Assembly: GCF_028736035.1 (NCBI RefSeq)
Contig: NZ_CP117866.1
Location: 8,659,001 to 8,723,000 of the forward strand
Length of the DNA stretch: 64,000 nucleotides
Origin: Streptomyces sp. T12
GTDB lineage: Bacteria; Actinomycetota; Actinomycetes; Streptomycetales; Streptomycetaceae
Reading direction: 5' to 3'
In this document: positions 3,385 through 26,255 of the stretch, one piece after another
Layout of the letters: every line of letters begins with the position of its first letter
Position numbering within the stretch: the stretch's first letter is position 1
Program-made: the position numbers and the translations under genes
The notes under the pieces: model-generated
Databases searched by the model: none
What the model was told of the DNA's origin: nothing
The model's input: the letters and a program-made list of their open reading frames with translations, nothing else

Positions 3385-3700
3385 GCGGGTGACCACGCCT
3401 ATGACGTGGCGGTGATCGGCTGCGGGCCGACCGGCGTGATCGCTGCAGCTGAAGGAGGACATGCTGGCCGAGCGGCCCTGCGACTTCGCCGATGCCCGCG
3501 GCCGTGCCTTCATCAGCGCGCTTCCCACCTCGCGCGGGCACGGTCATCCGCCGCAGATGTTCCTCTACCAGCCGGCGCTGGAGCAGGTCCTGCGCGAAGG
3601 GGCCGACCGCTACCCGAACGTGGAGGTGCTGCTGCGGCACGAGTGCCTGCGGCTGCGCCAGGACGCCGACGGGGTGGAACTCACGGTGGTCGGCACCGCC
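3385..3700 (+). pseudogene. FAD-dependent aromatic hydroxylase fragment
   Basis: The Rossmann FAD motif is intact (YDVAVIGCGPTGVIAA, GxGPxG) but the frame then shifts after a deletion at about 3440. In the next frame sequence resumes as ERPCDFADARGRAFISAL, PPQMFLYQPALEQVLREGA and PNVEVLLRHECLRLRQDADG, typical of the middle of MhpA-type 3-(3-hydroxyphenyl)propionate/phenol hydroxylases. At about 3690-3700 it passes directly into IclR-type sequence, showing a deletion junction. The catalytic DG motif and C-terminal domain are gone. It probably belonged to an aromatic-degradation locus together with the adjacent IclR remnant. Confidence 0.7.
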
Positions 3701-3924
3701 GACGACTTCGTACGGCGGCTGGTACCCCGCTGCCGAGTCTCACCCGAGGAACAGGAAGCCGCGCCGGGCGTGAGCTGCATCGCGGCCCCCGTCTTCGCCG
3801 GCGGCACCGCGGTGGCCGCCCTCTCCGTGGCCGCACCCCGCTCACGTTTCCGCCCCGCCCAACTGGCCCCGCTGTGCGCACCGCGGCACTGGGGCTGTCG
3901 CGGGTGCTGCGGGGCGGCGGCTGA
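3691..3924 (+). pseudogene. IclR-family regulator C-terminal fragment
   Basis: Sequence in the hydroxylase frame continues as PEEQEAAPGVSCIAAPVFAGG and TAVAALSVAAPRSRFRP, the conserved effector-binding core of IclR regulators ('GVSCIAAPVF...AVAALSVS'). After a frameshift near 3865 another frame gives the expected last helix VRTAALGLSRVLRGG and a stop. The DNA-binding half is missing. The fragment is fused in frame to the hydroxylase remnant, so one deletion joined two genes of what was probably one catabolic cluster. Confidence 0.7.
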
Positions 3925-3970: not shown

Positions 3971-5809
3971 TCAGGAGCTCGGCCGAGGGATCGGCTCGGC
4001 CGGGGTGAGGAGGTCGGAGTGCAAGGGGTCGAGGCCCGTCGAGCGGAGCTCCTCGCGGGTTCGTGAGCGCTGGATCTTGCCGCTGGTGGTCCGGGGCACG
4101 CTCATCGGCCCGACGATGACGACTTGGACGGCCAGCCGCAGTTCGTGGGCCAGGCGCCTTCTGATGAGGTCGGCGAGGGCCGCGGGAGTGCGGCCGTTGA
4201 GGTGGAGCGGGCGGATTTCCTGGACCAGCACGATCCGCTCGCGGCCGGAGCCGTCGGGCAGGGTGAAGGCGGCGCAGGGGCCGGTCGCGGGGTCGGCTGT
4301 TTCGCTGATGCGCTCGATGTCCTGGGGGTGGATGTTGCGCCCGTTGGCGATGATCAGGTCCTTGGCGCGACCGGTGACGTAGAGCTCGCCCTCCTGGAGG
4401 AAGCCGAGGTCTCCGGTGCGCAGGTACGGGCCGTCACCCCCGTGGCCGTCTCCATCGCTGTCGCCGTCCCCGTCCCCGTCTGCGGTGACAGCGCCGAAGT
4501 GCTCGGCGGTGCCTTGTGGGTCGTTGAGGTAGCCGTCGGCGACGCTGTCGCCGCGTACCCAGATCTCGCCGACCCGCCCGTCCTGCAAGGGGCATGAGGT
4601 CGCGGAGTCGACGATCCGGACATCGGTGCCGGCGGGACGGCCGCAGCCGACCAGGTCGACGCCGTGCGAGGCGGGCACAGCCCGGCCGGCCTCCAGCGCG
4701 TCCCGGTCGAAACGCCCCACGGTCGGCCCGCTGCCGCAGGACGTGCCGGTCACCATGAGAGTGGCCTCGGCCAGGCCGTAGCTGGGCGCCCAGATGTCCG
4801 GACGGAAGCCGATGGGGGCGAGTCGGCGGGCGACCGCGTTCAGGACGTCGGCGTGGACGGGCTCGGCGCCGCTCAGTGCGAAGCGCAGGCAGTCCAGGTT
4901 CAAGTCAGGGTCCAGGTCGGTTAGTTGGCCGTCCTTGAGGCTCCTCAGCAGCCAGTCGTAGCCGAAATTCGGGGCGAAGGTGTAGAAGGCCCGGTACCTG
5001 CTGATCATCTGGAGCCAGAGCAGCGGGTGGGCGATGAAGGACACCGGGGAGCAGAAGACGAGGTTGCCGCAGCTCGCGAGCGGGCTGAGCAGCATGCCGA
5101 CCAGGCCCATGTCGTGGTAGTGCGGGAGCCATCCGGCGCCGGACTGCGACGGGTCGTGGCGCAGTTCGTCCAGGACGTCCCCGGGGAGGAGGTTCTCCCT
5201 GATCGACAGCAGGTTGTGCAGCAGGTTCCGGTGGGTGATGACGACACCGCGCGGCTCGCTCGTCGACCCGGAGGTGTACTGGATGTAGGCGGTCGCGGAG
5301 AGCTCCAGGGCGACGGGGGACCAGGGGCCGGGGTCCGGCAGACCGGTCCCGTCGGTCCCGGCGGTCCTGTCAGTCCCGTCGGTCGCGACGCACTCCGTCC
5401 GCGAGGTGAGGCCCAGGCCTGCCAGCCAGGAGCCGAGCCTCGGTTGGTGAGCGGCATCGCTGAGGACCAGCCCGACGTCCGCGTCGCGGATGATGCCCTC
5501 GGCGCGTTCCAGGGCCCGCCGGTCCGTGGCCGGCAGCGGGGCGGGGATGGCGACCCGCCCGGAGTACAGGCAGCCGAGGAAGACCGCGAAGAACTCCAGG
5601 CCCGCCGGGTACATCAGCAGGACACGCGCGCCGGGCGCTGTCCTGTCGGCCAGCCATGCCCCCACCGCTCGGGCCCGCGCGTCGAGTTGGGCGTACCCGA
5701 GACGTTCCACCTCGACGAGATCGTCCCGGACGCTGTCCACGCGCGCGTACCAGCGGGTGTCGCCGAGGAGCCACATCTTCTCGCGCAGGAACCGGACGAG
5801 TTCACTCAC
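3971..5809 (-). CDS. Fatty acyl-AMP ligase (FAAL)
   Basis: This 612-residue ANL-superfamily enzyme should activate a fatty or other carboxylic acid as its adenylate and pass it to an acyl carrier protein. Visible motifs are the phosphate loop YTSGSTSEPRG at about residue 180, THRNLLHN, YGLAEATL, the YLRTGDLGF core and the C-terminal SGKIQRSRT lysine. Length, the 'GAGWLPHYHDMGLVGMLL' motif and the early DARARAVGAWL region fit FAALs of polyketide and lipopeptide clusters rather than CoA ligases. It starts with GTG at 5809 inside the end of the ACP gene (8-bp overlap). Two low-complexity linkers, TDGTDRTAGTDGT and a DGDGDGDSDGDG tract, are unusual. It is the last gene of the PKS operon and presumably loads the adjacent free ACP. 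Confidence 0.88.
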   Translation of the reverse strand: MSELVRFLREKMWLLGDTRWYARVDSVRDDLVEVERLGYAQLDARARAVGAWLADRTAPGARVLLMYPAGLEFFAVFLGCLYSGRVAIPAPLPATDRRALERAEGIIRDADVGLVLSDAAHQPRLGSWLAGLGLTSRTECVATDGTDRTAGTDGTGLPDPGPWSPVALELSATAYIQYTSGSTSEPRGVVITHRNLLHNLLSIRENLLPGDVLDELRHDPSQSGAGWLPHYHDMGLVGMLLSPLASCGNLVFCSPVSFIAHPLLWLQMISRYRAFYTFAPNFGYDWLLRSLKDGQLTDLDPDLNLDCLRFALSGAEPVHADVLNAVARRLAPIGFRPDIWAPSYGLAEATLMVTGTSCGSGPTVGRFDRDALEAGRAVPASHGVDLVGCGRPAGTDVRIVDSATSCPLQDGRVGEIWVRGDSVADGYLNDPQGTAEHFGAVTADGDGDGDSDGDGHGGDGPYLRTGDLGFLQEGELYVTGRAKDLIIANGRNIHPQDIERISETADPATGPCAAFTLPDGSGRERIVLVQEIRPLHLNGRTPAALADLIRRRLAHELRLAVQVVIVGPMSVPRTTSGKIQRSRTREELRSTGLDPLHSDLLTPAEPIPRPSS

Positions 5810-6068
5810 CGCCGGCTCCGATCCGTCCGGCCAGGGCCTCCTCCACGTAGCCGACCACGGCGCCGACCGTGTGCAGCTCCCAGGCGATTTCGTCGGGGAT
5901 GCGCACCCCGAACCGCTCCTCGGCGACGACGGTCATCCGCACCAGGACGAGCGAGTCGAGGGCGAGGTCCGCGATGAACGCGGTCTGCTCGTCGACCTGT
6001 TCGGGGTCGATGTCGCCGAACTCGGCGAGCATCGCCTTCAGTTCGGCGAGGATCTCGGAGCGGTTCAC
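5802..6068 (-). CDS. Free-standing acyl carrier protein
   Basis: This 88-residue acidic protein has the phosphopantetheine site LALDSLVLVRM (Ser of DSL near residue 39) and helices typical of ACPs (EILAELKAMLAEFGDIDPEQV). GTG at 6068 overlaps the TGA of the ALDH-P450 gene as GTGA, and its own stop overlaps the FAAL start, so the three are translationally coupled. It is the most likely acceptor of the FAAL-activated acyl group and donor to the PKS ketosynthase, or the carrier on which the ALDH-P450 acts. Confidence 0.9.
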   Translation of the reverse strand: MNRSEILAELKAMLAEFGDIDPEQVDEQTAFIADLALDSLVLVRMTVVAEERFGVRIPDEIAWELHTVGAVVGYVEEALAGRIGAGGE

Positions 6069-9067
6069 CGAACGGCCCGCTTCTGGGGCTGCTGCAGCTT
6101 GCGTAGCTTCTGGACTTTCTGAGCCTTCTGAGTCTTATGTGGCTTTTGTGCCTTACCTGTCTTCCGTGGCACGTCCCAGGCGACGGGCAGGACACTGAGC
6201 CCGCGCTCGAACATGCTGGGCCGCCACCGCGGCGTGCCGTCCAGCCGCAGGCCGGGCAGCCGGCGCAGCACGGTGGTGACGGCGGCCTCGGCCGTCATCC
6301 GGCCGATGTGGGCGCCCAGGCAGTAGTGGGCGCCATGCCCGAACGCCAGATGGCCGGGGGTGGGACGGCGCAGGTCGAGCCGGTCGGGGTCGGGGAAGCG
6401 GGCGGGGTCCCGGTTGGCCGCGCCGAGGCACAGGAACAGGGACTCGTTCGCCGGGACGGTCACCTCGCCGAACTCGACGGCTTCGAGGGTGCCCCGCCAG
6501 CTCGTGAACGGCAACGGGCTCTCGTAACGGAGGAGTTCACCGATGCCCGTCTCCAGCAGCGCCGGGTCGCCGCGGAGCTCGGCGAGTTGGCCGGGGTGGG
6601 TGAGCAGGGCGTGCAGGCTGTTGCCGACGCTGTTGATGCTGGGGTCCTGGCCCGCCACCAGCATCATCATGACCTGGCCGTGCAGTTCGTCCTCGCCGAT
6701 CAGAGCGTCCTCGTCGCGGGCCCGGACCAGCAGCGAGATCAGGTCGTCGCCGGGGGCGCGGCGCTTCTCGGCGACCGCCTTGCGGACGAACCCGTCGATC
6801 TCGTGGGCGAGCGCCGCCACGTAGGGGACGTCGTTGTTCCATTCGGCGGTCCGCCAGATCATCGCCCGCAGATGGTTCATCCGGGGCGGGGTGGCGCCGA
6901 GGACGGAGAACAGGACGTTGCCGCCGAGCGGGTAGGCGACGGCCGCCATGAGGTCGGCCCGACCCCGGTCCACGATCTGGTCGATCCGGGTGTCGACGAC
7001 GCGCTGCACCCGGGAGCGCCACTGTTCCTGGCGCGCGGGCGTGAAGAACGGCCGCATGATCGCCCGCAGTTCGGCATGGCGCGGGTCGTCACTGTCCAGC
7101 AGGTGCGTGAAGAGCCGCTCCCGCAGCTCGGACGGCCAGTGCCGCAGCCACATACGGCCGGCGGTGATGCGTGTGCTGTCGCAGCTCACCCGCGCGTCGG
7201 TGTGGGCCCGCCGGACGTCGTCGTAGCGGGTCAGCAGCCAGCCCGGACCGTCCGGAGCCATGATCTGGCTCACCGGCCGGTGCTCCCGCAGCCAGTGCAG
7301 CGTCGGGTACGGGTCGTGCTGGAACGCCTCGGTGAACGGAGCCGGCAGCCCGCCCGGCAGCTCCTCGGGCGGCCAGCCCGGCGGGTACTCCCGGACCGCC
7401 TCGACCCTGGGCCTGCGCCGCGCCGGGACGTACGGGGTGACGCCCTCGGACGGCGCGGGCGGGGACTGCGCCACGGACACGCCCTGGAGGCGACTGGTGC
7501 GCAGCATCGGGTAGTTGAGCTCGCCGAACCGGTCGCCGCTCAGCCCCGGGCCGCCATGGTTGGACAGGTACGGAACGCCCGCGAGGTGCGAGTCGTTCAC
7601 CCGGATCTGGCCGCACGAGCGGACGTCCCGGACGAACCGGTCGATGACCTGCGGGTCCTGTGCCCACAGGGAGTTGCGCAGGCCGTAGGCGCCGGCGGCG
7701 ACGAACGACACCGTCTCGGCGAGGAGTTCGTCGTCACCGGCGGGCTCGGGGACGACGACGGTCAGCATCGGGAAGAACGTCTCGTGCCGGACCGACCTGA
7801 GCTCCCGCGCCCGGGCGAGCCCGTCGACCCGGATGAGTGCCGGCTCCGCGAAGACGGCGACATCGCTCTCCCGGCCGCCCACGTCCAGGTGGCGTCCGCC
7901 GGTCAGCACACGGGCGCCCGCCCGCCGGGCGTCGGCGAGCGCCGCGTCGTATCCGGCGGTGTTGGGCGTGGCAGCCAGCACCACCTCGGGATCGTCGGGG
8001 AAACCGGGCCGCAACGCCCGGACGCGGTCGGTGAGTCGGTCGACGAGCCGGTCGGCGATCTCCGGGTGGACGAGCGCGATGTTGGGCGCACAGCAGATCT
8101 GGCCGCTGCCGTGGTACGACTCCAGCAGCGCGTCCACGGCCCGGTCGAGGGGCGCGTCACGCCACACCACGACCATGTCGTTGCCGCCGAGTTCCAGGAT
8201 CGGCTTCTTGCCCGCGACGAGGCACGCCTTCTCGATCTGTTCGCCGCGGATCGAGTCGCCGAAGTACAGCACGTCGTCCACCAGCGGACTGTCCAGCCAG
8301 GCATCCAGCGCCTGGGCCGGGTCGGTGCACAGCGCCGACAGGACACCGGGCGGGGCACCGGCCTCGGCCAGCGCCGGTACGGCGATCCGCTCCAGCAGAT
8401 ACATCGCGGCGATCGGCGCCTGTCGCGACAGCCGCACCACCAGCGCGTTGCCCGCCAGCACGGACTGGAAGGCCGCGCCGACGCTCAGCGCCGGGGTGTT
8501 CTGCGGCGGCTGCACGCAGACGACGCCGTCCGGCATCCGGCGCAGCGACACCGTCCGTCCACCGGCGGTGTGCCGTGTCTCCAGCTGCCGCAGACACCAG
8601 TCGGTGGTCTCGGGCGCGAAGAAGGTGACAAGGTTGGCGACCTCCATCCGGGCCAGCCGGACCGGGTGCCCTTCCTCGACCAGGAGGTCGGTCAGCGTGT
8701 CCGCGTGTTCCCGCAGCCGTGCGCGGAACGCCTCGGCGACGGCGGCGCGTCGGGCTCGCGGGCTGCCGCCCCATTCGTCCGCGGCGTGCCGTGCCGTGCG
8801 CAGCGCGGTCTGCATGAGGTCGGGTCCGGCGACGGCGCAGCGCCCCAGGATCGTTTCCGGGTGGGCGTCGACGCGCATGTGCCCGGCGTTGAGCGCGTTG
8901 CGGTAGCAGGTGGCGCCGATGGGGTCGTCGATCAGCGCGCTCGCGCGGAGTGCGTAGACCCACTCGGTCGGGCTGGGGACGGTGGTGCCGCCGAGGAGGG
9001 GACCGAAGCTGAGAAAGCTTTCGGTGGGGTCCGCCGTCGGGGTATCGGGTTCCTGACAGGTCACCAT
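6065..9067 (-). CDS. Aldehyde dehydrogenase-cytochrome P450 fusion protein
   Basis: The 1000-residue single chain joins two complete enzymes. Residues about 30-520 are an NAD(P)-dependent aldehyde dehydrogenase: the PxNTPALSV Rossmann region, ELGGND with the general-base Glu near 292, GSGQICCAPN with the nucleophilic Cys near 324, and ETFFP. The cofactor-contact Lys is replaced in the VVRLSR stretch. A linker leads to a class I P450 at about 560-960: I-helix VAGQDPSINSVGN, ELLRYES (ExxR), and heme motif FGHGAHYCLGAH with Cys near 914. The usual I-helix Asp/Glu-Thr pair reads Asp-Pro-Ser here. The last 35 residues are a basic KTQKAQKVQK-like repeat tail. Both halves look catalytically competent. 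Sequential oxidation (C-H to aldehyde to acid) or aldehyde release from a carrier are both possible. ATG at 9067 has GGGAGG upstream and follows the PKS stop by 14 bp. Confidence 0.88.
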   Translation of the reverse strand: MVTCQEPDTPTADPTESFLSFGPLLGGTTVPSPTEWVYALRASALIDDPIGATCYRNALNAGHMRVDAHPETILGRCAVAGPDLMQTALRTARHAADEWGGSPRARRAAVAEAFRARLREHADTLTDLLVEEGHPVRLARMEVANLVTFFAPETTDWCLRQLETRHTAGGRTVSLRRMPDGVVCVQPPQNTPALSVGAAFQSVLAGNALVVRLSRQAPIAAMYLLERIAVPALAEAGAPPGVLSALCTDPAQALDAWLDSPLVDDVLYFGDSIRGEQIEKACLVAGKKPILELGGNDMVVVWRDAPLDRAVDALLESYHGSGQICCAPNIALVHPEIADRLVDRLTDRVRALRPGFPDDPEVVLAATPNTAGYDAALADARRAGARVLTGGRHLDVGGRESDVAVFAEPALIRVDGLARARELRSVRHETFFPMLTVVVPEPAGDDELLAETVSFVAAGAYGLRNSLWAQDPQVIDRFVRDVRSCGQIRVNDSHLAGVPYLSNHGGPGLSGDRFGELNYPMLRTSRLQGVSVAQSPPAPSEGVTPYVPARRRPRVEAVREYPPGWPPEELPGGLPAPFTEAFQHDPYPTLHWLREHRPVSQIMAPDGPGWLLTRYDDVRRAHTDARVSCDSTRITAGRMWLRHWPSELRERLFTHLLDSDDPRHAELRAIMRPFFTPARQEQWRSRVQRVVDTRIDQIVDRGRADLMAAVAYPLGGNVLFSVLGATPPRMNHLRAMIWRTAEWNNDVPYVAALAHEIDGFVRKAVAEKRRAPGDDLISLLVRARDEDALIGEDELHGQVMMMLVAGQDPSINSVGNSLHALLTHPGQLAELRGDPALLETGIGELLRYESPLPFTSWRGTLEAVEFGEVTVPANESLFLCLGAANRDPARFPDPDRLDLRRPTPGHLAFGHGAHYCLGAHIGRMTAEAAVTTVLRRLPGLRLDGTPRWRPSMFERGLSVLPVAWDVPRKTGKAQKPHKTQKAQKVQKLRKLQQPQKRAVR

Positions 9068-9081
9068 GACGGGCCTCCCTT

Positions 9082-12000
9082 TCAGCCGTTGGCGGTGTCG
9101 GTGGTGCGCACGCCCAGGCGCAGCAGCACGTGGCGGGCGAGGTCGGTGACGGTGACGCCGCTCTGGAGGAGTTCCAGGGGCGGGATCTCGACATCGAGGC
9201 GTTGGCGCAGTGTGGTCAGCAGCTCGGCGGCCATCAGGGAGTCGACGCCGTAGTCCTGAAGCGGCAGCTTCGGATCGAGGCGGGCGGCGTCGGTCTGCAG
9301 GATCTGGGCCAGATACTCGGCGAGCGTGCCGCCGACCGTCGTCAGCGCCTCTTCGGCGGTGAGGTCGGCCAGGGCCGCCACGAGGTCCTGGCGGGTGTGC
9401 CCGCCGAGGTCGCCGTCGGCGGGCAGCAGCGCCGCGAAGCGGGGCGTGGTCAGGGTCGGCAGGAAGGTGCGCAGCCGGGCCCAGTCGTGTCGGCCCACAC
9501 CTGCGACGACGGTGCCGGACGCCGCCAGCGAGTCCAGGGCGTCCAGCGCCTCGCGCGAGCCGAGCGCGACTGTGCCGAGCGCTTCCATGGACGGTACGAG
9601 CCCCTCGCGGGCGACATGTCCGCAGTCCCCGAGCGCACCCCAGGCGACGGCGATGGCCGCTTCGGTGCCGTGCCGCCTGCGGGCCAGCGCTTCGGTGAAC
9701 AGGTTCCCGCCGACGTAGGCGGACTGCTTGACGTTGCCCACGGCCGTGGTGAACGAGGAGTACAGCCAGAACAGCCGCAGGTCGTGCTCCCGGGTCAGCG
9801 CGTCGAGGACCGCCGCGCCGGCCAGCTTGGGGGCCAGGACCGCGCGGATCCGCTCGTCGGTGAGTTCGGTGAGGGGGGCGTCGTCGAGCGTCATGGCCGC
9901 GTGGACCACACCCGCGAGCCGGTGCCCGGTGGCGTCGACGCGGCTGATCACCTCGGCCATGGCGGCGGAGTCGGTGACGTCGGCGGCGTACGGCGTGGCG
10001 GTCACGCCCAGCGCGGTCAGGCCGGACAGTACGTCGGTCGCCTCGGGACCGTCGGGGCCCCGCCGGGAGACCAGGGCCAGATGGCGGGCGCCGCGGTCGG
10101 CGAGCCGGCGGGCGGTCGCGGCGCCGAATCCGCTCAGCCCGCCGGTGACCAGATAGGTGCCGTCGGGTTCGAGCCGGGGCGGCTCGGGCCGAGTCCGGAC
10201 GGGAACCGGGCCGTCCTGCGGATCGAGGCTCACGACGACCTTGCCGATGTGCCGCGAGTGCTGCAGCAGCGCGAACGCCTCGCCGACCCGTGCGGCCGGG
10301 TACACCGTGTGCGGCAGCGGCCGGTAGCGGCCGTCCGCCACCCGTTCGGCGACCTCGGCGAGCAGACGCCTGCCTTGTGCGAGCCCCGCCGCGTCGGACA
10401 GCAGGGCGGTGACGTCGACGCCGAAGAAGGCGATGTTGCGGCTGAACGGCCGCATGAGGAGCGGCTTGTTGGCGTAGATGTCGCGCTTGCCGAGTTCGAT
10501 GAACCGGCCGCCCGGCCGCAGCGTCTCCAGGCCCCGGTCGATGGCCTGCCCCGCCAGCGAGTTGAGCACCACGTCGATCCCGCGCCCACCGGTGATCCGC
10601 AGCGCCTGACCGGCGAAGTCCAGGCTCCGGGAATCCAGTACGTGCTCGACGCCCAGCGCGCGCAGCAGGTCACGCTTGGCCGGGCTGCCCGCGGTGGCGA
10701 TCACGGTGGCGCCCACCAGACGGGCGTACTGGACGGCGGCCAGCCCCACCCCACCGGCGGCCCCGTGCACCAGCACGGTCTCCCCGGGCGCCAGTCGCGC
10801 CAGGTCGTGCAGGGCGTAGTGGACCGTCAGGAAGGCCACCGGCACGGTCGCGGCCTCCGCGAAACCGAGACCGTCGGGGATCTTCACCACGGCCGCCGCG
10901 GGAGCCACCGTGTGCGAGGCCAGGCAGGCCGGCACCGCCGCGCACACCCGGTCCCCGACGGCCACGTCGCCCACGCCCTCGCCCACGGCCGTGACGATCC
11001 CGGCGCATTCGAGGCCGGGGCCCGTGTCGCCGAACCCTCCCTCTGTCGCCTCCGGGGGCAGCAGACCGGTCGCCTGCATGATGTCGCGGTAGTTGAGCGC
11101 GGCGGCGCGCACCGCGATCACCACCTCACCGGCCCCGGGGGCGACGGGCTGGGTCCGCGTCCAGGCCGGCTCGTACGACAGTCCGGGCGCGCGGATCTCA
11201 AGGGCGAAGGGTCCGTCGCCGCTCCGCTCGATGTGCTCGCCGGACGGGAGTTCGCGTTCCCGGGGTACGAAGCGGCCGCCCGTGGTGATGACGATCTCGT
11301 CCTCACGTGCGGCCGGGCCCTCGTCCTCACCGAACGACACGGCGGGTTCCAGCAGTTCGCGGGCCAGCCGGTGCGCGTCGGCGGCCGGGTCGCCGAGGCG
11401 TTCCAGCGACAGCCGGGTCACCCGCAGGTCGGGGTGCTCGTTGGCCAGGGTGCGGGCCACGCCCCAGGCGGCGGCGTCCTGCGGGTGGGCGGCGCGTTCG
11501 GGTGCGGGCAGTGCGCCGCTGGGCCGGGTCACCAGCCACAGGGCGGGCCGGGCGCCGTCCGGGAGGCTCTTGCAGGCCGCGGCCAGGGCGCGCAGCGTGG
11601 CAGCGCGCCGTACGGCCTGGTCGAGCATCGCCTGCGGGGCGGAGGGGGAGTCGGCGGGGGAGTCGCCCAGCAGGAGCACCACGGCCGGGTCGCCCTCACC
11701 GGCGAGCGACGCCGTCCAGGCCGCGGGGTCGACGGGAGCGGACGTCACCGGGACGGACCGCGTTCCGCCGTCGGCCAGGAGTGCGGCGAGGTGCTCGGCC
11801 AACGGCGTCTCCGGTTGGCTCTCGGTGGCCACGATCCACCGGGTGCCGTCGTCCGGCCGGGGCAGCGCGGGCTGGGCGGTCTCGTATGCGGGTGCCGAGG
11901 CCAGCAGCACCGAGACGCCGTCCCGGGCCGGTGACTCGATGCTGCCGCCGATGTGGACGACGTCGGCGAGGCCGCATGCGGGCAGCACCTCGGCCCACTG

Positions 12001-15000
12001 TTCGCGGCTCAACAGGGGTGAGTCCGGACGCAGTTCGTCGTCGTGGCTCCAGAAGCTGTCCAGCGTGCCGAAGAACGGCAGCAGATAGCCCGTGTCGTGA
12101 GTCTCGAAGGCCAGCAGTCGGCCGCGGGGAGCCAGCAGCCCGCGTACCCGGCGCAGGGCCGACCGCAGGTCGGTCGCGGTGTGCAGGGAGTTGGCCGCGA
12201 CGATCAGGTCGTAAGCACCGTCGGCGAAGCCCTGCTCAGCCGGGTCGGCGTTCAGGTCGAACGGACGGTAGTCGACGAAGTCGTGGTCGCCGAAACGGTG
12301 CCGGGCGCGGGCGAAGAAGCCCGCGGAGACGTCCGTGAAGTGGTAGACGGTCCGCTCCGGTGGCAGCAGCGGCAGCACCGCTGCGGCGGTCCCACCCGTG
12401 CCCGCGCCGATCTCCAGGATCCGTAGCGGCCGGTCCTCGGGCCAGGACCGGGCGATCTCCGCCGCGAGCGAGGCAAGGACCCGGTTGGGGAAACGGCAGG
12501 ACGGCGCCACGTCGTAGAACTGCTCCAGGGCTTCTTGGGAACCCTGGCCGGTCAGCAGCTGCAGCGCGTCGCGCTCACCGCGCAGCACCTGCGGCAGGTG
12601 CGACAACTGGCGGACCGCCAGCTGCACTTCGGCACTGCAGGCCGGGAAGTCCGACGGCAGCGCGGCCAGGAGGGGGCCCGGGGCCGCAGTGCCGGTCAGC
12701 CGCCACCGTCCGTCCTCGCGGGCGGCGGCCAGACCGTGACCGGCCATCAGGTCGAGCAAGGTCCGCGCCAGCCGGTCGTATCCGGGAAGCATCCCGTGCC
12801 GGACCAGGTCGGCGGGCGTGAACTCGGCCACCTCCGCGGGCAGCAGGCTCTCGAACGCGGCGGCGGCCACATGGGCGGTCACCAGCTTCAGCCGGGCGGC
12901 GAAGTCCTCGAAGCGCGTGGCGCGCCAGCCGGCCTCCACAGCGGCGACGCTCCCTGCGACGGCCGCGGCGAGGTCATGGTTGGCGGGCAGCGGCGAGGGC
13001 GCCGCCGGCAGGTGGAGATGCGGCGCGGCCCGCAGCACGGTCTCGTACCGCAGGGGCGCCCGGTCGGCCGGGCCGGGCACCCGACGCATCCGTACGCCGT
13101 CCAGTTCGGCGGTGACGCTGCCGTCCGGGTCGGTGACGGTGATGTCGAAGCAGAGTTCGGCGGTGCCGCGTGTGCGGTCGCGGACGTGCAGCATCCCCGT
13201 CGCGGACGGTCTCCGCCAGACGCGTACGGCCCCGATCGCGGCCGGAAGCCAGCACTGCCCGGCGCCGGCCCGGGCGGCCACGAGCGGCACACATGCCTGG
13301 AGCGCGCCGTCCAGCAGCGCCGGATGCACCACGTACTGCGCGGTGTCGGCCGCGTCCGTGGTGTGCCGGTAGGCCGCCAGTACCTCCCCGTCCCCGAGGT
13401 GCAGCCGCGCGAGCTGGCGGAACGCGGGCCCGTAGTCCAGACCGTTCGCGGCCAGTTCGCGATACAGGGTGTCGACGTCGCCCCGGCGGGCGCAGCGGGC
13501 ACGCACCGCGGCCACGTCGATCCGGGCGGGCGGGCGGCCGATCAACTCGCGGACCCGGCACCGGGCGTGCGGACGGGGCCGAGTGCCGTCCACGTCGGTG
13601 CCGTCGGTGGCCTCGGTGCTGGTGATGGACACCATGCCGTCGTCGGGTGAGAACCCGAGCTGCACGTGGACGTCCCCGGCCCGGTCCCACGGGACGACCA
13701 GCGGGCGGCTCACCTCCAGCCAGGCCAGTTCCACCGGGCCGTCCAGCACCCGCCGGCCGGCGGACAGAGCCATCTCGACGTAGCCCGTCGCGGGGAGAAC
13801 CACCGATCCGGCCACCTTGTGGTCGGCCAGCCAGGGCACCAGCACCGGTTCGACCGGCCCGTGCCAGGAGGGTTCCGCCGTCGGCAGCCGCTCGCCCAGC
13901 AGGGGGTGGTCCAGCCGTCCCGATCCGCTGCTGACGATCCACTGCTGCGGGGTGCCGCTCCAGTGCCGTTCCCGCTGCCACGGGTACGCGGGAAGCTCCG
14001 CCACTCGGGCGGGGCGCGGGAACCAGCGCGTCCAGTCCGTCTGCGCCCCGGCGGCGATCAGCGCTTCGACCGACCGGCGCAGCGCGGCCGGGCCGGCGGC
14101 GCTGCGGCGCAGGGTGTCGAGTACGGCCACCCGGTCGCGTCCGGCGGTGATCCGGCGCAGGTAGGTGCGCAGGACGGGATGGGGGCCGACTTCCAGCAGG
14201 ACGTCGACGCCCGCGTCCAGGGCGTGGCCGACGGCGGCGGCGAACCGGACCGGCTCGCGGACGTTGCGCCACCAGTATTCGGCGTCCAGGCCGCTCGCGG
14301 GCACCGGGCCGCCGGTGACCGTGGAGATCAGCGCCTCGGTGCTCCTGCTCGGGGCCAGCCCTTCGAGGCCGACGGCCAGCGGGGCGCGGACCCGCTCCAT
14401 GACCGGGCTGTGGAAGGCGTAGTCGAGGTCCATGAGCCGGAAGAACACCTCGCGGGCCGTCAACTCCTCGCCCAGCGACTTGAGTTGGTTGACAGGTCCG
14501 GCGATCGTCACGTCCCTGGCGCTGTTCACGGCGGCCACCACCAGGCCCGGGTAGGCCGACAGAGCCCGCTCCGCCTCGGCCGACGGCAGCCCCACCGCGG
14601 CCATCCGGCCCCGGCCGGCCGTGGCCGCCTGGGCCCGGCCGCGCTCGGCGACCACCCGCGCCGCCTCCTGCAGCGTCAGCGCGCCGACGGCGTACGCGGC
14701 GGCCACCTCGCCGACGCTGTGCCCGAGCGCGACCGTCCACTTCACGCCCCGCTCGCGCAGGACCGCGACGATGCCGGCCTGCATCGTGAACAGCAGCGGC
14801 TGCGCCACCTCGGTGGCCTCCAGCCCCCACTCGTCCGCCGGCCGGCGCAGCTGCGCGGCGACCGACCAGCCGATCCGGGGCTCCAGCGCGCCGTCGGCCG
14901 CCTCCACCTCCGCGCGGAACACCGGGTCGGCGTCCAGCAGGTCGGCGGCCATCCCCGCCCACTGCGAGCCGTTGCCGGCGAAGACCAGCCCGACCCGGCC

Positions 15001-16674
15001 GTGCTCGACCGCCTCACCGGTCACGCCGTCGTCGGTCAGGATCCGCGCGGCTTCGTACGGGGAGGAGGCGAGCGCCACGCGGCGGTAGCGGTGCTGCGCG
15101 CGGCGGAGGCTGGTGGTCGCGGCGATGTCGTAGAACTCCGCCGACTCCGCGAACTCCGCCGACTCCGCCGACTCCGTCGGCGCTGTGGGCCCTGTCGGGT
15201 CTGTGGGCCCCGTGGGTTCCTGCGGCTCTGTCGGCTTCTCCGGCGTGGTGCGCGTCAGCCGGGCGGCCAGCCGCCGTGCCGCCTCCTCGGCCGCCTGCGG
15301 GGTACGCCCCGAGGCGATCACCGGCAGTTCACCGACCGCATCCGTGCCGGCCGGCAGGGTGGCGGAAGGCGGCGGGCCCACGACGACATGGGCGTTGGCC
15401 CCGCCGAACCCGAAGGAGTTGACGCCCACGAAGCGCCGTCGGCCCCGACCCCCCGAGGCCAGCGGACGCGCCCGGTCGACCGGCTCCAGCCCCAGCCCGG
15501 CGAAGTCGATTCCGGGGTTGAGCGGTTCCAGGTGCAGTGAGGCGGGGATCGTGCCGTACCGCAGCACCGTGAGGGCCTTGAACAGCCCCGCCATGCCCGA
15601 CGCCGGCTCCAGGTGCCCGACGTTGGACTTCACCGACCCGATGGGCAGCGGGCCCACCGTCCGTGCCACGCCCAGCACTTGGCCCAGCGCCGTGCACTCG
15701 GCCGGATCCCCTGCCTGCGTGCCGGTGCCGTGCGCCTCCACGTACTCGACCTCGTCGGGCGTGATCGCGGCCCGCTCGTACACCCGCCGCAGCAGGTCCT
15801 CCTGCGCCCGCGCGCTGGGCAGCGCCAGCCCGACCGTGCGCCCGTCGCAGTTGCTGCCGGCGCCGGCGATCACGCCGTGGATCCGGTCGCCGTCGGCCAG
15901 TGCGTCGGACAGCGGCTTCAGCACCACCACGCCCGCACCCTCGGCCCTGACGAACCCGTCGGCGTCCGCCGAGAACGCCGCGCACCGGCCCCGCTTCGAC
16001 AGCATCGACGCCTGGCTGAACCCGACGAATCCCGCAGGGTTCAGCAGTACGTTGACCCCGCCCGCCAGCGCCACACGGCTGCCGCCCGACGCGAGCTCCT
16101 TGCAGGCGCGTTCCACGGCCACCAGCGACGACGAGCAGGCGGTGTCGACGGCCATGCTGGGCCCGCGCAGGTCGAAGAAGTGCGACAGCCTGTTCGCCGC
16201 GATGGAATGGGCCGTGCCCGCCATGGAATAGGCGTTCAGCCGCCGCGCCCTGACCATCTGCAGCCCGCCGTAGGAGAAGTCCGAGACGCCGACGAACACA
16301 CAGGTGTCGGAGCCCGCCAACGTCCCGGGGTCGATCCCCGCGTCGTCCAGCGCCTCTACGGCCGTCTCCAGGAGCAGCCGGTGCTGCGGGTCCATCTGCG
16401 CCGCCTCCCGCGGCGAGATCCCGAAGTAGTCCGCGTCGAACCCGGCGATGTCCGCCAGGAACCCGCCTCGCGCGGTGTACGACTTCCCCGGCCGCGTCAT
16501 CGCGGTGTCGACGAACCGCGCACTGTCGAACCGCTCCTGCGGAACTGCCCCGACCAGGTCACGCCCGGCCTCCAACGCCTCCCACAGCCCGGCCAGATCC
16601 ACGATCCCACCGGGCAGTCGGCACCCCAGACCCACGATCGCGAACGCGTCCGTCCCGTACGAGTCCCCCGCCAT
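9082..16674 (-). CDS. Highly reducing type I PKS with C-methyltransferase (KS-AT-DH-MT-ER-KR-ACP)
   Basis: The 2530-residue megasynthase is a single module. KS 10-430 has DTACSSSL, EAHGTGT and KSNVGHLE. AT 555-860 has GHSVGE and YAFHS, suggesting malonyl rather than methylmalonyl use. DH 910-1190 has HxxxGxxxxP in DHKVAGSVVLP and HPALLDGALQA. MT about 1300-1560 has EIGAGTGGT. ER 1790-2110 has HGAAGGVG. KR 2160-2340 has GGLSGFGAA and the Ser-Tyr-Asn triad in SSFTTAVGNVKQSAYVGGN. ACP 2440-2515 has GVDSLMAAEL. All active-site residues that can be read are present. No thioesterase or docking domain is visible. The order with an embedded MT resembles iterative, fully reducing PKSs. The linker before AT holds PTGPTDPTGPT and ESAESAEFAESAEF repeats. 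It is first in the minus-strand operon with the ALDH-P450, ACP and FAAL genes. Confidence 0.93.
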   Translation of the reverse strand: MAGDSYGTDAFAIVGLGCRLPGGIVDLAGLWEALEAGRDLVGAVPQERFDSARFVDTAMTRPGKSYTARGGFLADIAGFDADYFGISPREAAQMDPQHRLLLETAVEALDDAGIDPGTLAGSDTCVFVGVSDFSYGGLQMVRARRLNAYSMAGTAHSIAANRLSHFFDLRGPSMAVDTACSSSLVAVERACKELASGGSRVALAGGVNVLLNPAGFVGFSQASMLSKRGRCAAFSADADGFVRAEGAGVVVLKPLSDALADGDRIHGVIAGAGSNCDGRTVGLALPSARAQEDLLRRVYERAAITPDEVEYVEAHGTGTQAGDPAECTALGQVLGVARTVGPLPIGSVKSNVGHLEPASGMAGLFKALTVLRYGTIPASLHLEPLNPGIDFAGLGLEPVDRARPLASGGRGRRRFVGVNSFGFGGANAHVVVGPPPSATLPAGTDAVGELPVIASGRTPQAAEEAARRLAARLTRTTPEKPTEPQEPTGPTDPTGPTAPTESAESAEFAESAEFYDIAATTSLRRAQHRYRRVALASSPYEAARILTDDGVTGEAVEHGRVGLVFAGNGSQWAGMAADLLDADPVFRAEVEAADGALEPRIGWSVAAQLRRPADEWGLEATEVAQPLLFTMQAGIVAVLRERGVKWTVALGHSVGEVAAAYAVGALTLQEAARVVAERGRAQAATAGRGRMAAVGLPSAEAERALSAYPGLVVAAVNSARDVTIAGPVNQLKSLGEELTAREVFFRLMDLDYAFHSPVMERVRAPLAVGLEGLAPSRSTEALISTVTGGPVPASGLDAEYWWRNVREPVRFAAAVGHALDAGVDVLLEVGPHPVLRTYLRRITAGRDRVAVLDTLRRSAAGPAALRRSVEALIAAGAQTDWTRWFPRPARVAELPAYPWQRERHWSGTPQQWIVSSGSGRLDHPLLGERLPTAEPSWHGPVEPVLVPWLADHKVAGSVVLPATGYVEMALSAGRRVLDGPVELAWLEVSRPLVVPWDRAGDVHVQLGFSPDDGMVSITSTEATDGTDVDGTRPRPHARCRVRELIGRPPARIDVAAVRARCARRGDVDTLYRELAANGLDYGPAFRQLARLHLGDGEVLAAYRHTTDAADTAQYVVHPALLDGALQACVPLVAARAGAGQCWLPAAIGAVRVWRRPSATGMLHVRDRTRGTAELCFDITVTDPDGSVTAELDGVRMRRVPGPADRAPLRYETVLRAAPHLHLPAAPSPLPANHDLAAAVAGSVAAVEAGWRATRFEDFAARLKLVTAHVAAAAFESLLPAEVAEFTPADLVRHGMLPGYDRLARTLLDLMAGHGLAAAREDGRWRLTGTAAPGPLLAALPSDFPACSAEVQLAVRQLSHLPQVLRGERDALQLLTGQGSQEALEQFYDVAPSCRFPNRVLASLAAEIARSWPEDRPLRILEIGAGTGGTAAAVLPLLPPERTVYHFTDVSAGFFARARHRFGDHDFVDYRPFDLNADPAEQGFADGAYDLIVAANSLHTATDLRSALRRVRGLLAPRGRLLAFETHDTGYLLPFFGTLDSFWSHDDELRPDSPLLSREQWAEVLPACGLADVVHIGGSIESPARDGVSVLLASAPAYETAQPALPRPDDGTRWIVATESQPETPLAEHLAALLADGGTRSVPVTSAPVDPAAWTASLAGEGDPAVVLLLGDSPADSPSAPQAMLDQAVRRAATLRALAAACKSLPDGARPALWLVTRPSGALPAPERAAHPQDAAAWGVARTLANEHPDLRVTRLSLERLGDPAADAHRLARELLEPAVSFGEDEGPAAREDEIVITTGGRFVPRERELPSGEHIERSGDGPFALEIRAPGLSYEPAWTRTQPVAPGAGEVVIAVRAAALNYRDIMQATGLLPPEATEGGFGDTGPGLECAGIVTAVGEGVGDVAVGDRVCAAVPACLASHTVAPAAAVVKIPDGLGFAEAATVPVAFLTVHYALHDLARLAPGETVLVHGAAGGVGLAAVQYARLVGATVIATAGSPAKRDLLRALGVEHVLDSRSLDFAGQALRITGGRGIDVVLNSLAGQAIDRGLETLRPGGRFIELGKRDIYANKPLLMRPFSRNIAFFGVDVTALLSDAAGLAQGRRLLAEVAERVADGRYRPLPHTVYPAARVGEAFALLQHSRHIGKVVVSLDPQDGPVPVRTRPEPPRLEPDGTYLVTGGLSGFGAATARRLADRGARHLALVSRRGPDGPEATDVLSGLTALGVTATPYAADVTDSAAMAEVISRVDATGHRLAGVVHAAMTLDDAPLTELTDERIRAVLAPKLAGAAVLDALTREHDLRLFWLYSSFTTAVGNVKQSAYVGGNLFTEALARRRHGTEAAIAVAWGALGDCGHVAREGLVPSMEALGTVALGSREALDALDSLAASGTVVAGVGRHDWARLRTFLPTLTTPRFAALLPADGDLGGHTRQDLVAALADLTAEEALTTVGGTLAEYLAQILQTDAARLDPKLPLQDYGVDSLMAAELLTTLRQRLDVEIPPLELLQSGVTVTDLARHVLLRLGVRTTDTANG

Positions 16675-16995
16675 CTCAGCCCCCAGTCCAGAAACTCTGT
16701 GTAATCACTCGACTACGGGATCACCATGGCCGGGGCGCCGGGACAGGTCAAGCGGAACTGGGAGGAATACCCCTCCCCTTCACGTCATGACCTGCAGTAA
16801 CTCCCATGTGAATGACGGTAATCGGAGTCAACCTGTGTAGCCGGGAGCACCGAGTGGGGGAACGGCGCCTGACTCCAGCGAGTGATGGTGGGGCGTGCTC
16901 GATGCCGCCGAACAACTCGGTCAACGCCGACGGGGCGGCGTACGCCGACGTGGTGTCGGAGTGCGCCGCCCCGACGTGGGGAGGGCTGCCGGCCC
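16675..16995. other. Intergenic region upstream of PKS operon
   Basis: About 320 bp with lower GC in the middle (16690-16830). No supported gene is seen; the short plus frame at 16812-17015 has no recognisable homology or ribosome site. It must contain the promoter of the PKS operon and the end of the ABC-exporter operon, which runs in the same direction and stops at 16996. No clear factor-independent hairpin was found. Confidence 0.5.
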
Positions 16996-20752: not shown

Positions 20753-23248
20753 ATGAGTCACGTACGGCCCGGACGACTGAAGGTCTACCTCGGGGCGGCT
20801 CCGGGGGTCGGCAAGACCTACCGGATGCTCGACGAGGGGCGGCGCCGCGCCGCGCGCGGGGCGGATGTGGTGGTGGGGTTCGCGGAGTGCCACGGACGCC
20901 CCCACACGCAGGCGATGCTCGACGGCCTGGAGAGCGTCCCCCGCGCGCCCTGCACCTACCGCGGCGGACGCTTCGAGGAGATGGACCTGGCCGCGGTCCT
21001 CGCCCGTCGGCCGCAGGTCGCGATCGTCGACGAGTTCGCCCACAGCAACGTCCCCGGCGGCGGCCGCAACGCCAGGCGCCGGCAGGACATCGAGACCCTC
21101 CTCGACGCCGGTATCGACGTGATCACCACGCTGAACATCCAGCACCTGGCGTCCCTCAACGACGTGGTCCAGAAGATCACCGGCGTGCCCCAGCACGAGA
21201 CCGTGCCCGACGAGGTCGTACGACGCGCCTGGCAGATCGAGCTGGTGGACATGGAGCCCGAGGGGCTGCGCCGACGGATGGCACACGGCAACATCTACGC
21301 CCCCGAGAAGATCGACGCGGCCCTCGCCAACTACTTACGGCCGGGCAACCTGACCGCACTGCGCCAGCTGGCGCTGCTCTGGGTGGCCGACCGGGTCGAC
21401 GAGGCGCTGCAGGAGTACCGCTCGCAGCACGGCATCGGCGGGGTGTGGGAGACCCGGGAGCGGGTGGTCGTCGCCCTGACGGGCGGGCCGGAGGGGGACA
21501 CGCTCGTCCGGCGGGCCGCCCGGATTGCCGACCGTTCGGCCGGTGGCGATCTGCTCGCCGTGCACGTGGCTCGCAGCGACGGTCTCGCCGCCGGGGTCTC
21601 GCACGCCTCGCTCGCCCGGCAGCGCAGGCTCGTGGAGGACCTCGGCGGCAGCTACCACTCGGTCGTCGGCGACGACGTGGCCACCGCACTGGTGGAGTTC
21701 GCCCGGGCCGAGAACGGCACGCAACTCGTGCTGGGCACGAGCCGCCGCGGCCGGCTGGCCCGGTTCCTGACCGGGCCCGGCACGGGGGAGACCGTGACCG
21801 AGCTGTCCGGCGACATCGACGTGCACCGGGTCACCCACGAGCGGGCCGGGCGCGGCACGCTCCTGCCGTCGAGACGCCGCACGCTGTCGACGGCCCGACT
21901 GATCGCCGGTCCGGTGGCCGGGCTGGTGCTGCCCGTGCTGCTGACAGCCGTCCTCGCCCAGCTGCGGGGCACGCTGAACCTGACCAGCGAGGCCCTGCTG
22001 TTCCTGCTCACGGTGGTGGGCGTGGCCTGCATAGGCGGGGTCGCCTCGGCGGTGATCGCGTCGGTGACGGCGTCGCTGCTGCTGAACTACTGGTTCGTCC
22101 CGCCGATCGGCCGGTTCACACTGGATGACCCGAACACCCTGCTGGCGCTGGCGGTGTTCGCTGTCGTGGCGGCCACCGTGGCCGCGGTCGTGGACCGGTC
22201 CCTGCGGCTGTCGCGGCGCTCCGCCCGGGCGACGGCCGAGGCGGAGACCATGTCGTCCCTGGCCGGCAGCATCGTGCGCGGTGAAGCGACCATCCCGGCC
22301 CTGCTGGAGCGGACGCGCGAGACCTTCGGCATGGAGTCGGCGGACCTGGTGGACGAGCCGCCCGACGCGGCCGGGGTGACGGCCGTTCCGGCGGGCCCCG
22401 GCGCCTGCCTCGCGCTACGGGGCCGCACCCTGTCGTCGTCCGAGCGACGGGTACTGGCCGCCTTCGCCGCCCACGTCGGCTCCGCGGTCGAGCGCGCCCG
22501 GCTCGCCGAGGCGGCGGCCGAGGTGGAGCCGGTGAAAGCCGCCGACCGGCTGCGCACAGCCCTGCTGCGAGCCGTCGGCCACGACCTGCGCACGCCGCTC
22601 GCCGCCGGATGGGCCGCGGTCACGTCCCTGCGCAGCCGCGACGTCGACTTCTCCGCGGAGGACCGGGACGAACTCCTCGCCACCGCCGACGAGTCCATGG
22701 CCAAGCTCAACCGCCTGGTGGAGAACCTCCTCGACCTCAGCCGACTGGAGGCGGGCGCCCTCACCCTGAACCTGCGGGCCACCTCCCTGGAAGAGGTGCT
22801 GCCCATGGCGCTGACGGACATCCCGGGCGTGGACGTGGCGGACGTGGAGGAGATCCCGGCGGTGCTGGCCGACCCCCCGCTGCTGGAACGGGTCATCGCC
22901 AACCTGGTCGGCAACGCCGCCCGTCACACCCCGCCCGGAAAGAAGGTGCTGGTCACCGCCAGCGCCCTGGCGGGTCGGGTGGAGCTGCGCGTCGTGGACC
23001 GCGGTCCTGGTCTGCCCGCCGACGGCCGCGAACGGCTCTTCGAGCCCTTCCAACGGCTCGGCGACACCGACAACACCACCGGCCTCGGTCTCGGCCTGGC
23101 TCTCGCCCGGGGCCTGACCGACGCCATGAACGGCACCCTCACCCCCGAGGACACCCCCGGCGGCGGCCTCACGATGGTCGTGTCGCTGCCGTTCGCCGCA
23201 GAAACCGTGAGTGCCGTACCGACCGAGCGGAGCGTAGGAAGCACCTGA
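20753..23248 (+). CDS. kdpD: KdpD-type K+/turgor sensor histidine kinase (first copy)
   Basis: This 831-residue KdpD has an N-terminal KdpD domain with Walker A GAAPGVGKTY near residue 16 and VDEFAHSNVPGG. A universal-stress-protein-like domain (VVVALTGGPEGDTLVRRAARIA) follows, then four TM helices (about 385-480, LLTAVLAQLRG to ATVAAVVDRSL), a GAF-like segment, the HisKA box VGHDLRTPLAA with phospho-His near 609, and HATPase motifs NLVGNAARHTPPG, DRGPGLP and GLGLGLALARGL. It is complete, but unlike the second copy at 31557 it has no adjacent response regulator, so it may share KdpE or act through its KdpD/USP domain (a c-di-AMP binding site in other bacteria). A 400-bp leader holds operator repeats and one candidate KdpE box. 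Confidence 0.93.
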   Translation: MSHVRPGRLKVYLGAAPGVGKTYRMLDEGRRRAARGADVVVGFAECHGRPHTQAMLDGLESVPRAPCTYRGGRFEEMDLAAVLARRPQVAIVDEFAHSNVPGGGRNARRRQDIETLLDAGIDVITTLNIQHLASLNDVVQKITGVPQHETVPDEVVRRAWQIELVDMEPEGLRRRMAHGNIYAPEKIDAALANYLRPGNLTALRQLALLWVADRVDEALQEYRSQHGIGGVWETRERVVVALTGGPEGDTLVRRAARIADRSAGGDLLAVHVARSDGLAAGVSHASLARQRRLVEDLGGSYHSVVGDDVATALVEFARAENGTQLVLGTSRRGRLARFLTGPGTGETVTELSGDIDVHRVTHERAGRGTLLPSRRRTLSTARLIAGPVAGLVLPVLLTAVLAQLRGTLNLTSEALLFLLTVVGVACIGGVASAVIASVTASLLLNYWFVPPIGRFTLDDPNTLLALAVFAVVAATVAAVVDRSLRLSRRSARATAEAETMSSLAGSIVRGEATIPALLERTRETFGMESADLVDEPPDAAGVTAVPAGPGACLALRGRTLSSSERRVLAAFAAHVGSAVERARLAEAAAEVEPVKAADRLRTALLRAVGHDLRTPLAAGWAAVTSLRSRDVDFSAEDRDELLATADESMAKLNRLVENLLDLSRLEAGALTLNLRATSLEEVLPMALTDIPGVDVADVEEIPAVLADPPLLERVIANLVGNAARHTPPGKKVLVTASALAGRVELRVVDRGPGLPADGRERLFEPFQRLGDTDNTTGLGLGLALARGLTDAMNGTLTPEDTPGGGLTMVVSLPFAAETVSAVPTERSVGST

Positions 23249-23321
23249 TGAGCACGGTGACCGGGACCTGGAAGTGCACCGTACGGGAGGGACCGCCGGA
23301 CCGGTCAGGAAGGGCTGACGC

Positions 23322-23843
23322 TCACTCCAGGCCGGAAGCCTGGAACACGGCGCGGGCGGTTTCGCGGTGCACGCGCTGCGCGACGCATCGCAAGGCGGTC
23401 GCACCGCACAGCAACGAGCCGTCGGCGGCGGCCTTCCGTGCGCCCTCGTCCAGGCGGAGCCACAGCTGCGGATTGCGCACCAGGACCTCGGGGTCGATCT
23501 CGACGCGGCCGCCCAGGGCGTCGCGCAGCAGGATCCGCTCGGAGATGCCGTCCAGGCAACGGACCGACACCAACAGGTCCGTCCGCACCCGGTGCTCGCG
23601 CACCAGTCGACGCGAGGCCAGCCAGTTCCCGCCCGCGGACACCCGGGCGGGGTACAGCACGACGAAGAGCAGCCCGGCGAGTACGCACCACAGTGCGGCG
23701 CGCCACGGGGTGATCCGGCCGGAGCCCCAGTCGACCAGGAGAAGGAGAGCGAGCAGGACGCCGGCGCAGCGGACGGTGCTCCATAACTCCCGTGTCCACT
23801 CGGGGTCGTCCGCCGCTTCCCCGGACCTGTCAGGGCGTCCCAT
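23322..23843 (-). CDS. Small membrane protein, unknown function
   Basis: This 173-residue protein has two N-terminal TM helices (STVRCAGVLLALLLLVDWG and LWCVLAGLLFVVLYPA) followed by a cytoplasmic domain (SVRCLDGISERILLRDALGG, EIDPEVLVRNPQLWLRLDEG). ATG at 23843 is chosen; a longer frame would need a TTG start. No family is recognised. It is divergent from the K+ importer gene and converges on the orphan kdpD, so it may belong to the potassium island; the candidate KdpE box at 23912 lies in the shared divergent promoter. Confidence 0.7.
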   Translation of the reverse strand: MGRPDRSGEAADDPEWTRELWSTVRCAGVLLALLLLVDWGSGRITPWRAALWCVLAGLLFVVLYPARVSAGGNWLASRRLVREHRVRTDLLVSVRCLDGISERILLRDALGGRVEIDPEVLVRNPQLWLRLDEGARKAAADGSLLCGATALRCVAQRVHRETARAVFQASGLE

Positions 23844-23911
23844 GACGCAGACGTTAACGAGCTGGGGCAACCACGTCTGCGGACCTTGATGCGGCTCTGA
23901 CAGAGCGGCCC

Positions 23912-23930
23912 GTCAAGGTTCCGTCAGGGT
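23912..23930. promoter_or_regulatory. Candidate KdpE box in kimA promoter
   Basis: GTCAAGG at 23912 and GTCAGGG at 23923 are spaced 11 bp, matching the pairs before the orphan kdpD gene and kdpF. The site is about 130 bp upstream of the kimA start and in the divergent region with the 23322-23843 gene. Confidence 0.5.
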
Positions 23931-24055
23931 CGGCCGGTTGGGCGCGAAGATGCCGCAAGGAACAGTCCGAGTCGGCGGCAGACGGACGGAACCTGGGTGC
24001 AGCCGCGCACACCTCAGCCCTCGTGCGCGGCCGAAGGAAGAAGGAGCACGCACCC

Positions 24056-25903: not shown

Positions 25904-25952
25904 CCCGGGTCACCGAGCGCCACAGCGGCCTGCGCCGGTTTGGATCAGGGGC

Positions 25953-26002
25953 GTAAGAGTCCCGTCAAAGCCGTGGGCGGCGCCGTAAGGGAGCCGTCAA
26001 CG
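25953..26002 (+). promoter_or_regulatory. Tandem candidate KdpE boxes upstream of kdpFABC
   Basis: GTAAGAGTCCCGTCAA (25953-25968) and GTAAGGGAGCCGTCAA (25985-26000) are a 16-bp direct repeat with three mismatches. Each contains two GTMAR half-sites 11 bp apart, and the four half-sites start at 25953, 25964, 25985 and 25996 (11, 21, 11 bp), all on one DNA face. The kdp operon starts 78 bp downstream of the last site. Confidence 0.6.
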
Positions 26003-26247: not shown

Positions 26248-26255
26248 GAGCAGAT

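Follow-up and report, generated by a model that had tools for sequence, protein, structure and literature searches.

The window, by which we mean the whole 64,000-nucleotide stretch of Streptomyces sp. T12 DNA analysed here, carries on its minus strand a cassette of four intact genes. In the order of transcription, they encode a highly reducing polyketide synthase (HR-PKS; 9082..16674, 2530 aa) with the domain order KS-AT-DH-MT-ER-KR-ACP and no thioesterase domain, an ALDH-P450 fusion (6065..9067, 1000 aa), a free ACP (5802..6068, 88 aa) and a stand-alone fatty acyl-AMP ligase (FAAL; 3971..5809, 612 aa). The PKS was recognised by Pfam, active-site motifs and relatives, and the fusion by Pfam, PDB matches and invariant residues, with the ALDH match at residues 68–511 and the P450 match at residues 580–972. 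PF00550 identifies the ACP (E 1.4e-12), while PDB matches and the FAAL models in NCBIfam identify the FAAL. The PKS and fusion genes are 14 nt apart, the fusion and ACP genes overlap by 4 nt, and the ACP and FAAL genes by 8 nt. A short leader (16675..16720, minus strand) lies upstream of the PKS gene, as seen in a by-eye alignment of upstream DNA from nine loci. The sequence-only reading had described a compact operon of FAAL, ACP, ALDH-P450 and HR-PKS, with which the coordinates, junctions, Pfam domains and conserved order agree; it had also noted the lack of a thioesterase, and Pfam gives none in any of the four proteins.

The genome holding the window has 11.46 Mb in 2 contigs, and the closest relatives of the cassette proteins come from Streptomyces. 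Between a TetR gene and the FAAL gene, fragments resembling an FAD hydroxylase and an IclR-type regulator (3461-3924) are probably decayed genes at the cassette edge. Elsewhere in the window, a long repetitive coding stretch (3-1136; repeats such as ggcttggccgggag), whose frame is open at the window edge, perhaps encodes a secreted repeat protein. The region 20753-34100 looks like a kdp region, with a KdpD-type kinase gene (20753-23248) and a second gene of similar N-terminal start (31557-34100). A separate P450 gene (34464-35672) lies about 18 kb from the cassette. A further set at 47223-60451, comprising a luciferase-like oxidoreductase, an MFS transporter, a cupin, an FAA hydrolase, an FAD monooxygenase and two ligase genes, resembles one for the catabolism of aromatic acids.

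Twenty protein clusters match at least 95% of the length of the ALDH-P450 fusion, and 12 named genome loci carry it whole; these sequences thus indicate that the fusion is genuine and no sequencing error. A genome-contig scan with alignment of 22 fusions yielded 15 loci. All four genes are present in eight of them (L031–L038), from S. regalis, S. cyaneus, S. alanosinicus, S. sp. cf386, S. caeruleatus, S. muensis, S. viridochromogenes and S. lanatus. In the S. longispororuber locus (L039), the fusion, ACP and FAAL genes are present, and the sequence covers just the end of the PKS gene. Three loci (L040, L044, L045) belong to a second fusion clade, clade 2; L041 is a remnant, and L042 and L043 have the ALDH alone. 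The ACP occurs in L031–L040, L044 and L045.

With gene starts set by alignment to the window, gene order is kept in all eight loci showing the whole set. The PKS-fusion gap measures 14 nt in seven of these and 15 in one, the fusion-ACP overlap is 4 nt throughout, and the ACP-FAAL overlap is 8 nt in seven and 4 in one. By sequence comparison, we regard the four-gene set as a conserved unit. The four genes look to be under purifying selection, with omega of 0.21–0.40 (16 pairwise estimates, the window against 4 of the 8 intact loci). In a genus sample of 199 genomes, two have the full fusion (the window's own and G097) and G067 has a broken copy. Decayed copies of the cassette lie in S. poonensis (L041:10001-12438) and in L003, of genome G067. 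Just past the S. longispororuber cassette, on the opposite strand, there is a second PKS gene (L039:10567-17118), 43–50% identical to the window PKS.

A DrrA/DrrB pair and a DUF4097 gene adjoin the cassette in the same orientation, separated from the PKS gene by 321 bp on its upstream side, and this position would suit a larger unit that includes them and makes an exported antibiotic. However, DrrA, DrrB and DUF4097 queries found no match in L031–L041, L044 or L045, with roughly 2.3–2.5 kb upstream of the PKS covered in the eight intact loci; one DrrA match, at 24%, came from L042. Six genomes of the genus that have no full fusion also carry most of the block: nearly all of it at 82–85% DNA identity in G019, G013 and G023, and at 76–78% identity in G024, G008 and G003. 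By these comparisons, the exporter is a bystander, as Streptomyces genomes that lack the cassette commonly contain its block. The missing matches at the loci and the occurrence without the fusion rule it out as a member of the unit, beside which the sequence-only reading had placed it, and the exported-antibiotic explanation is very improbable.

The flank comparison covered about 2.5 kb on the upstream side of the cassette and 1.5–8 kb on the downstream side. Some 200 bp of upstream DNA and stretches of the downstream flank are common to the window, L031 and L032; L033 and L034 share 875 bp upstream; L035, L036 and L037 share upstream genes, as well as a downstream region beyond 5.2–5.3 kb insertions adjoining the FAAL gene. 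Short upstream matches (92–217 bp, 70–78%) link some of L033–L038. No flank match at E 1e-6, upstream or downstream, joins the window group to the other loci, so the cassette occupies at least two different settings. The downstream flanks of L033, L034 and L038 match no other locus. About 45 bp upstream of the PKS gene align by eye in all nine loci, and longer homology exists only within subgroups. The extra blocks directly after the FAAL gene in L035, L036 and L037 are nested, about 5.2 and 5.3 kb long, and differ among the loci.

At 10.41 Mb, far from its cassette at 8.66 Mb, the window's genome has DNA that matches the upstream flank of L036 at 86%. This distant match fits a move of the cassette rather than decay around one fixed site. 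Searching the two flanks of L036 in 121 genomes each, we found that matches to both are never adjacent, so no empty site is shown; the nearest spacing is about 26 kb (G088), and in the window's genome the matches lie at 10.41 and 5.68 Mb. That the cassette is self-contained and has moved its chromosomal place at least once is a tentative proposal, held jointly with the whole explanation set out below.

The 15 best PDB matches of the 612-aa ligase are FAAL-type, with 205–345 bits; the remainder reach at most 111 bits and CoA ligases at most 73 bits. By these scores, the ligase sequence stands nearer to FAALs than to acyl-CoA ligases. In the window, as in all eight intact loci, the ACP gene runs into the start of the FAAL gene.

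In the window PKS, the active-site motifs of every domain are present, judged by the usual motif patterns. Strict patterns missed one motif each in three of the eight loci, namely KR in L032, MT in L034 and the second DH motif in L038. The closest PKS relatives, among the matches listed, are 74–91% identical. Many listed Streptomyces PKSs are 53–58% identical over nearly the whole length, and 7368 of the 7974 scored candidates pass E 1e-100. Judged from such matches, the cassette PKS by itself is of a common kind. One of the PKSs in a 2020 PNAS study of iterative PKSs in Streptomyces could be a relative of the cassette PKS. That there is one module and no partner module hints at iterative use. 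Monomodular, supposedly iterative type I PKSs are described as widespread (PMC8622039). Those of Streptomyces have the same domain set, and what distinguishes the cassette PKS is its linkage to a FAAL, an ACP and an ALDH-P450 fusion.

Clade 2 (L040, L044, L045) keeps the fusion, ACP and FAAL, together with a discrete KS, a second ACP and an ABC1-type kinase, and no HR-PKS was found in the 10 kb flanks of these three loci. A male-sterility-type reductase gene is also present in L040 and L044, while in L045 a class V aminotransferase gene lies some 5.3 kb upstream of where the fusion matches. With the KS of the azoxy-type plasmid cluster L066, the clade 2 KSs share 50–54% identity, and with the KS domain of the cassette PKS 28–32%. 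Since clade 2 keeps the three genes with discrete KS and ACP genes in place of the HR-PKS, one fusion-ACP-FAAL module appears to occur with two elongation systems. FAAL identity was discarded as proof that the three genes were inherited together, as clade 2 FAALs stand at 48–50% and other Streptomyces FAALs reach 48%. Beside the clade 2 fusion of L040, genes for a KASIII, an alpha/beta hydrolase, an AMP ligase and a 3-beta-HSD stand in a row (L040:16433-21070), and this set is OleABCD-like (head-to-head hydrocarbon or beta-lactone). A Tn3-family transposase lies upstream of the clade 2 cluster of S. monomycini (L044:1355-2773).

The clade 2 loci bear on the possibility that the fusion is a tailoring enzyme only, in which the methyl-branched acid made by the PKS would be freed by an unlinked thioesterase or by water, reloaded onto the free ACP by the FAAL, and decorated by the fusion. 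The gene order PKS, fusion, ACP, FAAL would suit such a flow, and the ambruticin FAAL-ACP didomain activates polyketide intermediates (PMC11837247). However, clade 2 has a FAAL and an ACP with no HR-PKS in the 10 kb flanks, so the FAAL need not depend on the HR-PKS. We consider tailoring alone unlikely.

In the ALDH half, Asn190, Glu292 and Cys325 are invariant in the 22 fusions and have counterparts in all 31 stand-alone ALDH relatives. Glu292 is the general base for oxidation to the acid by ALDHs; because all 31 stand-alone relatives keep it, it does not discriminate direction, and we rejected it as an indicator. Arg215, which may favour NADPH, is invariant in the fusions and present in 26 of the 31 relatives. 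A tree of 95 ALDHs, built by a quick method from 16 of the 22 fusions, 48 of the 96 listed stand-alone homologues and 31 loci, places the fusions in one group with support of 100 (the midpoint root serves for drawing only). This group splits into clade 1 and clade 2, consistent with a single origin of the two. The nearest relatives are at 40–50% identity, and the fusions stand as a group separate from them.

An acyl-CoA-dehydrogenase-fold gene lies near the ALDH at 24 of the 31 stand-alone-relative loci, 18 of which also have an aminotransferase gene. The other seven have neither in the flank examined, which for 27 of all 31 loci extended no more than about 1.5 kb. Two annotated plasmid examples (L066, L067), counted among the 31 from their own annotation, contain VlmB-like, DUF2156, SRPBCC, KASIII and ACP genes, with a seryl-tRNA ligase in one, and by our reading are valanimycin-type azoxy clusters. 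These two sit on linear plasmids of about 150 kb, and 5 plasmid records carry an ALDH relative. In azodyrecin biosynthesis, Ady2, 'a putative dehydrogenase', is proposed to convert a fatty acid into the aldehyde for the transaminase Ady4 (PMC9379638). From gene order, we infer that Ady2 belongs to the ALDH family of the fusion. In L031–L039, queries for an aminotransferase, acyl-CoA dehydrogenase, DUF2156, SRPBCC, VlmB-like protein and flavin reductase found no match. The azoxy clusters (valanimycin/azodyrecin-type) resemble our loci in having a related ALDH beside ACP and KS genes, whereas the cassette ALDH is fused to a P450. Release by the fusion as an aldehyde or acid, suggested by the sequence-only reading, is a reasonable candidate, and of its two products the aldehyde is the one favoured by the genomic setting in which this ALDH family occurs.

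In the P450 half, Glu844, Arg847 and Cys916 are invariant in the 22 fusions. P450s usually have a threonine (Thr252) that helps to protonate bound O2. The corresponding position is proline in all 22 fusions and in none of 115 stand-alone relatives, the best listed of 1520. Five sequences (P0245–P0248 and P0020) were dropped before this count, taken as fusion fragments by their identity of 63–88%; three of them read AGQDPS at the site, P0245 reads AGQAPAST, and P0020 ends before it. The acid-alcohol position is Asp-Pro in 21 fusions and Gly-Pro in one. The marker of CYP152 at this position is Arg-Pro, and we rejected a CYP152 peroxygenase or decarboxylase, as the fusions have Asp-Pro and their nearest solved relatives are CYP107-type. 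Identities are 37–38% to PikC, 39% to CYP107X1, 33–34% to EryF and 28–30% to BioI. By sequence and predicted fold, the P450 half is CYP107-like, at about the 40% identity that marks the border of a family. The AlphaFold model of the P450 half alone (mean pLDDT 85.9) adds only a CYP107-like fold, and that of the whole fusion (49.9) was set aside. P450eryF, among the nearest folds, has alanine at the Thr252 position and acts as a substrate-assisted hydroxylase.

The strongest rival to reductive release runs in the oxidative direction. The FAAL would load a fatty acid onto the ACP, and the P450 would hydroxylate or cleave the bound chain to an aldehyde, which the ALDH would oxidise to a carboxylate; a dicarboxylic starter would then pass to the PKS, or oxidation would follow the PKS, with release by hydrolysis or a trans thioesterase. 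P450 BioI (CYP107H1) performs such a cleavage en route to pimeloyl-ACP, and the cassette P450 is close in fold and sequence to BioI, which was solved with acyl-ACP. The residues for classical ALDH oxidation (Cys325, Glu292, Asn190) are present, and the fusion, ACP and FAAL stay constant while the elongation system varies by clade, as for a starter-unit module. On the other hand, BioI is stand-alone, with a normal acid-alcohol pair, and the identity to it is only 28–30%. The commonest ALDH-family context examined needs an aldehyde as its product, and the loss of Thr252 across all 22 fusions would not be expected of a plain hydroxylase. We hold the oxidative direction to be only a little less likely than reductive release; sequence cannot decide between the two.

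We favour, tentatively and with less than even confidence, a route in which the FAAL primes the chain, the HR-PKS elongates and alpha-methylates it, the ALDH half releases it reductively and the P450 half consumes the aldehyde. The FAAL would activate a fatty acid and load it onto the free ACP, and the one-module HR-PKS would elongate the ACP-borne chain, methylate its alpha carbon and fully reduce it. The ALDH half would take the acyl thioester onto Cys325 and reduce it to the aldehyde, thereby releasing the chain. The tethered P450, which lacks the usual threonine, would consume the aldehyde at once, most likely by oxidative C-C cleavage (deformylation) or another non-standard oxidation. The substrate flow, the direction of the ALDH, the P450 reaction and the product are thus all putative.

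Support for reductive release with aldehyde consumption comes from the order and junctions in the eight loci, the two or more neighbourhoods, the lack of a thioesterase and the single group of fusions. The pairing of the clade 2 fusion with a KS like that of an azoxy-type cluster points the same way. The ALDH relatives beside azoxy-type genes, together with the role proposed for Ady2, favour aldehyde formation, Arg215 may favour NADPH, and the proline at the Thr252 position supports non-standard P450 chemistry. Against it stand the seven ALDH-relative loci with neither neighbour and the role of Ady2, itself only proposed. Thr252 is also lost in substrate-assisted hydroxylases such as P450eryF; the nearest P450 relatives are CYP107-type hydroxylases, and BioI, whose substrate is acyl-ACP, is likewise close in fold. 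A narrower proposal, which we judge improbable, is that the fusion is a one-polypeptide hydrocarbon synthase, converting a methyl-branched or plain acyl-ACP via the aldehyde into an alkane or alkene plus formate. In it, the loss of Thr252 would favour a ferric-peroxo species, which would cleave the aldehyde.

The nearest known architecture is the cyanobacterial olefin synthase (OLS), FAAL-ACP-KS-AT-KR-ACP with a sulfotransferase-thioesterase end, as described in the FAAL review PMC11837247. In both systems, a FAAL and an ACP would prime a single reducing PKS module, and the OLS is a precedent for leading from FAAL, ACP and PKS to hydrocarbons. In contrast to the OLS, which has a KR only, the cassette also has DH, MT and ER domains, and the ALDH-P450 fusion replaces the sulfotransferase-thioesterase, a domain that Pfam finds in none of the four cassette proteins. 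Acyl-ACP reductase with aldehyde deformylating oxygenase (AAR/ADO) and insect CYP4G convert an acyl thioester via an aldehyde into a hydrocarbon (PMC12344977). This is the same reaction sequence as in the improbable hydrocarbon proposal, whereas the enzyme families differ. No description of an ALDH-P450 fusion or of the four-gene set was found in searches of an open-access library, and the words 'aldehyde' and 'P450' were not found in the main text of the review PMC11837247. The earlier statement that no described cluster has this gene set is uncontradicted by these sources, and an ALDH-P450 fusion at the chain-release position is apparently undescribed.

With four genes in 12.7 kb, the pathway looks complete and easily moved into a host. 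The two clades suggest that one priming or release module serves two unrelated elongation systems. If the fusion reduces the acyl-ACP and the P450 cleaves or rearranges the aldehyde, this would be a new ending for polyketide or lipid chains, possibly a hydrocarbon. Should the hydrocarbon proposal be true, AAR/ADO and CYP4G would have in this fusion a P450 counterpart from bacteria, supplied with its chains by a FAAL-primed HR-PKS.
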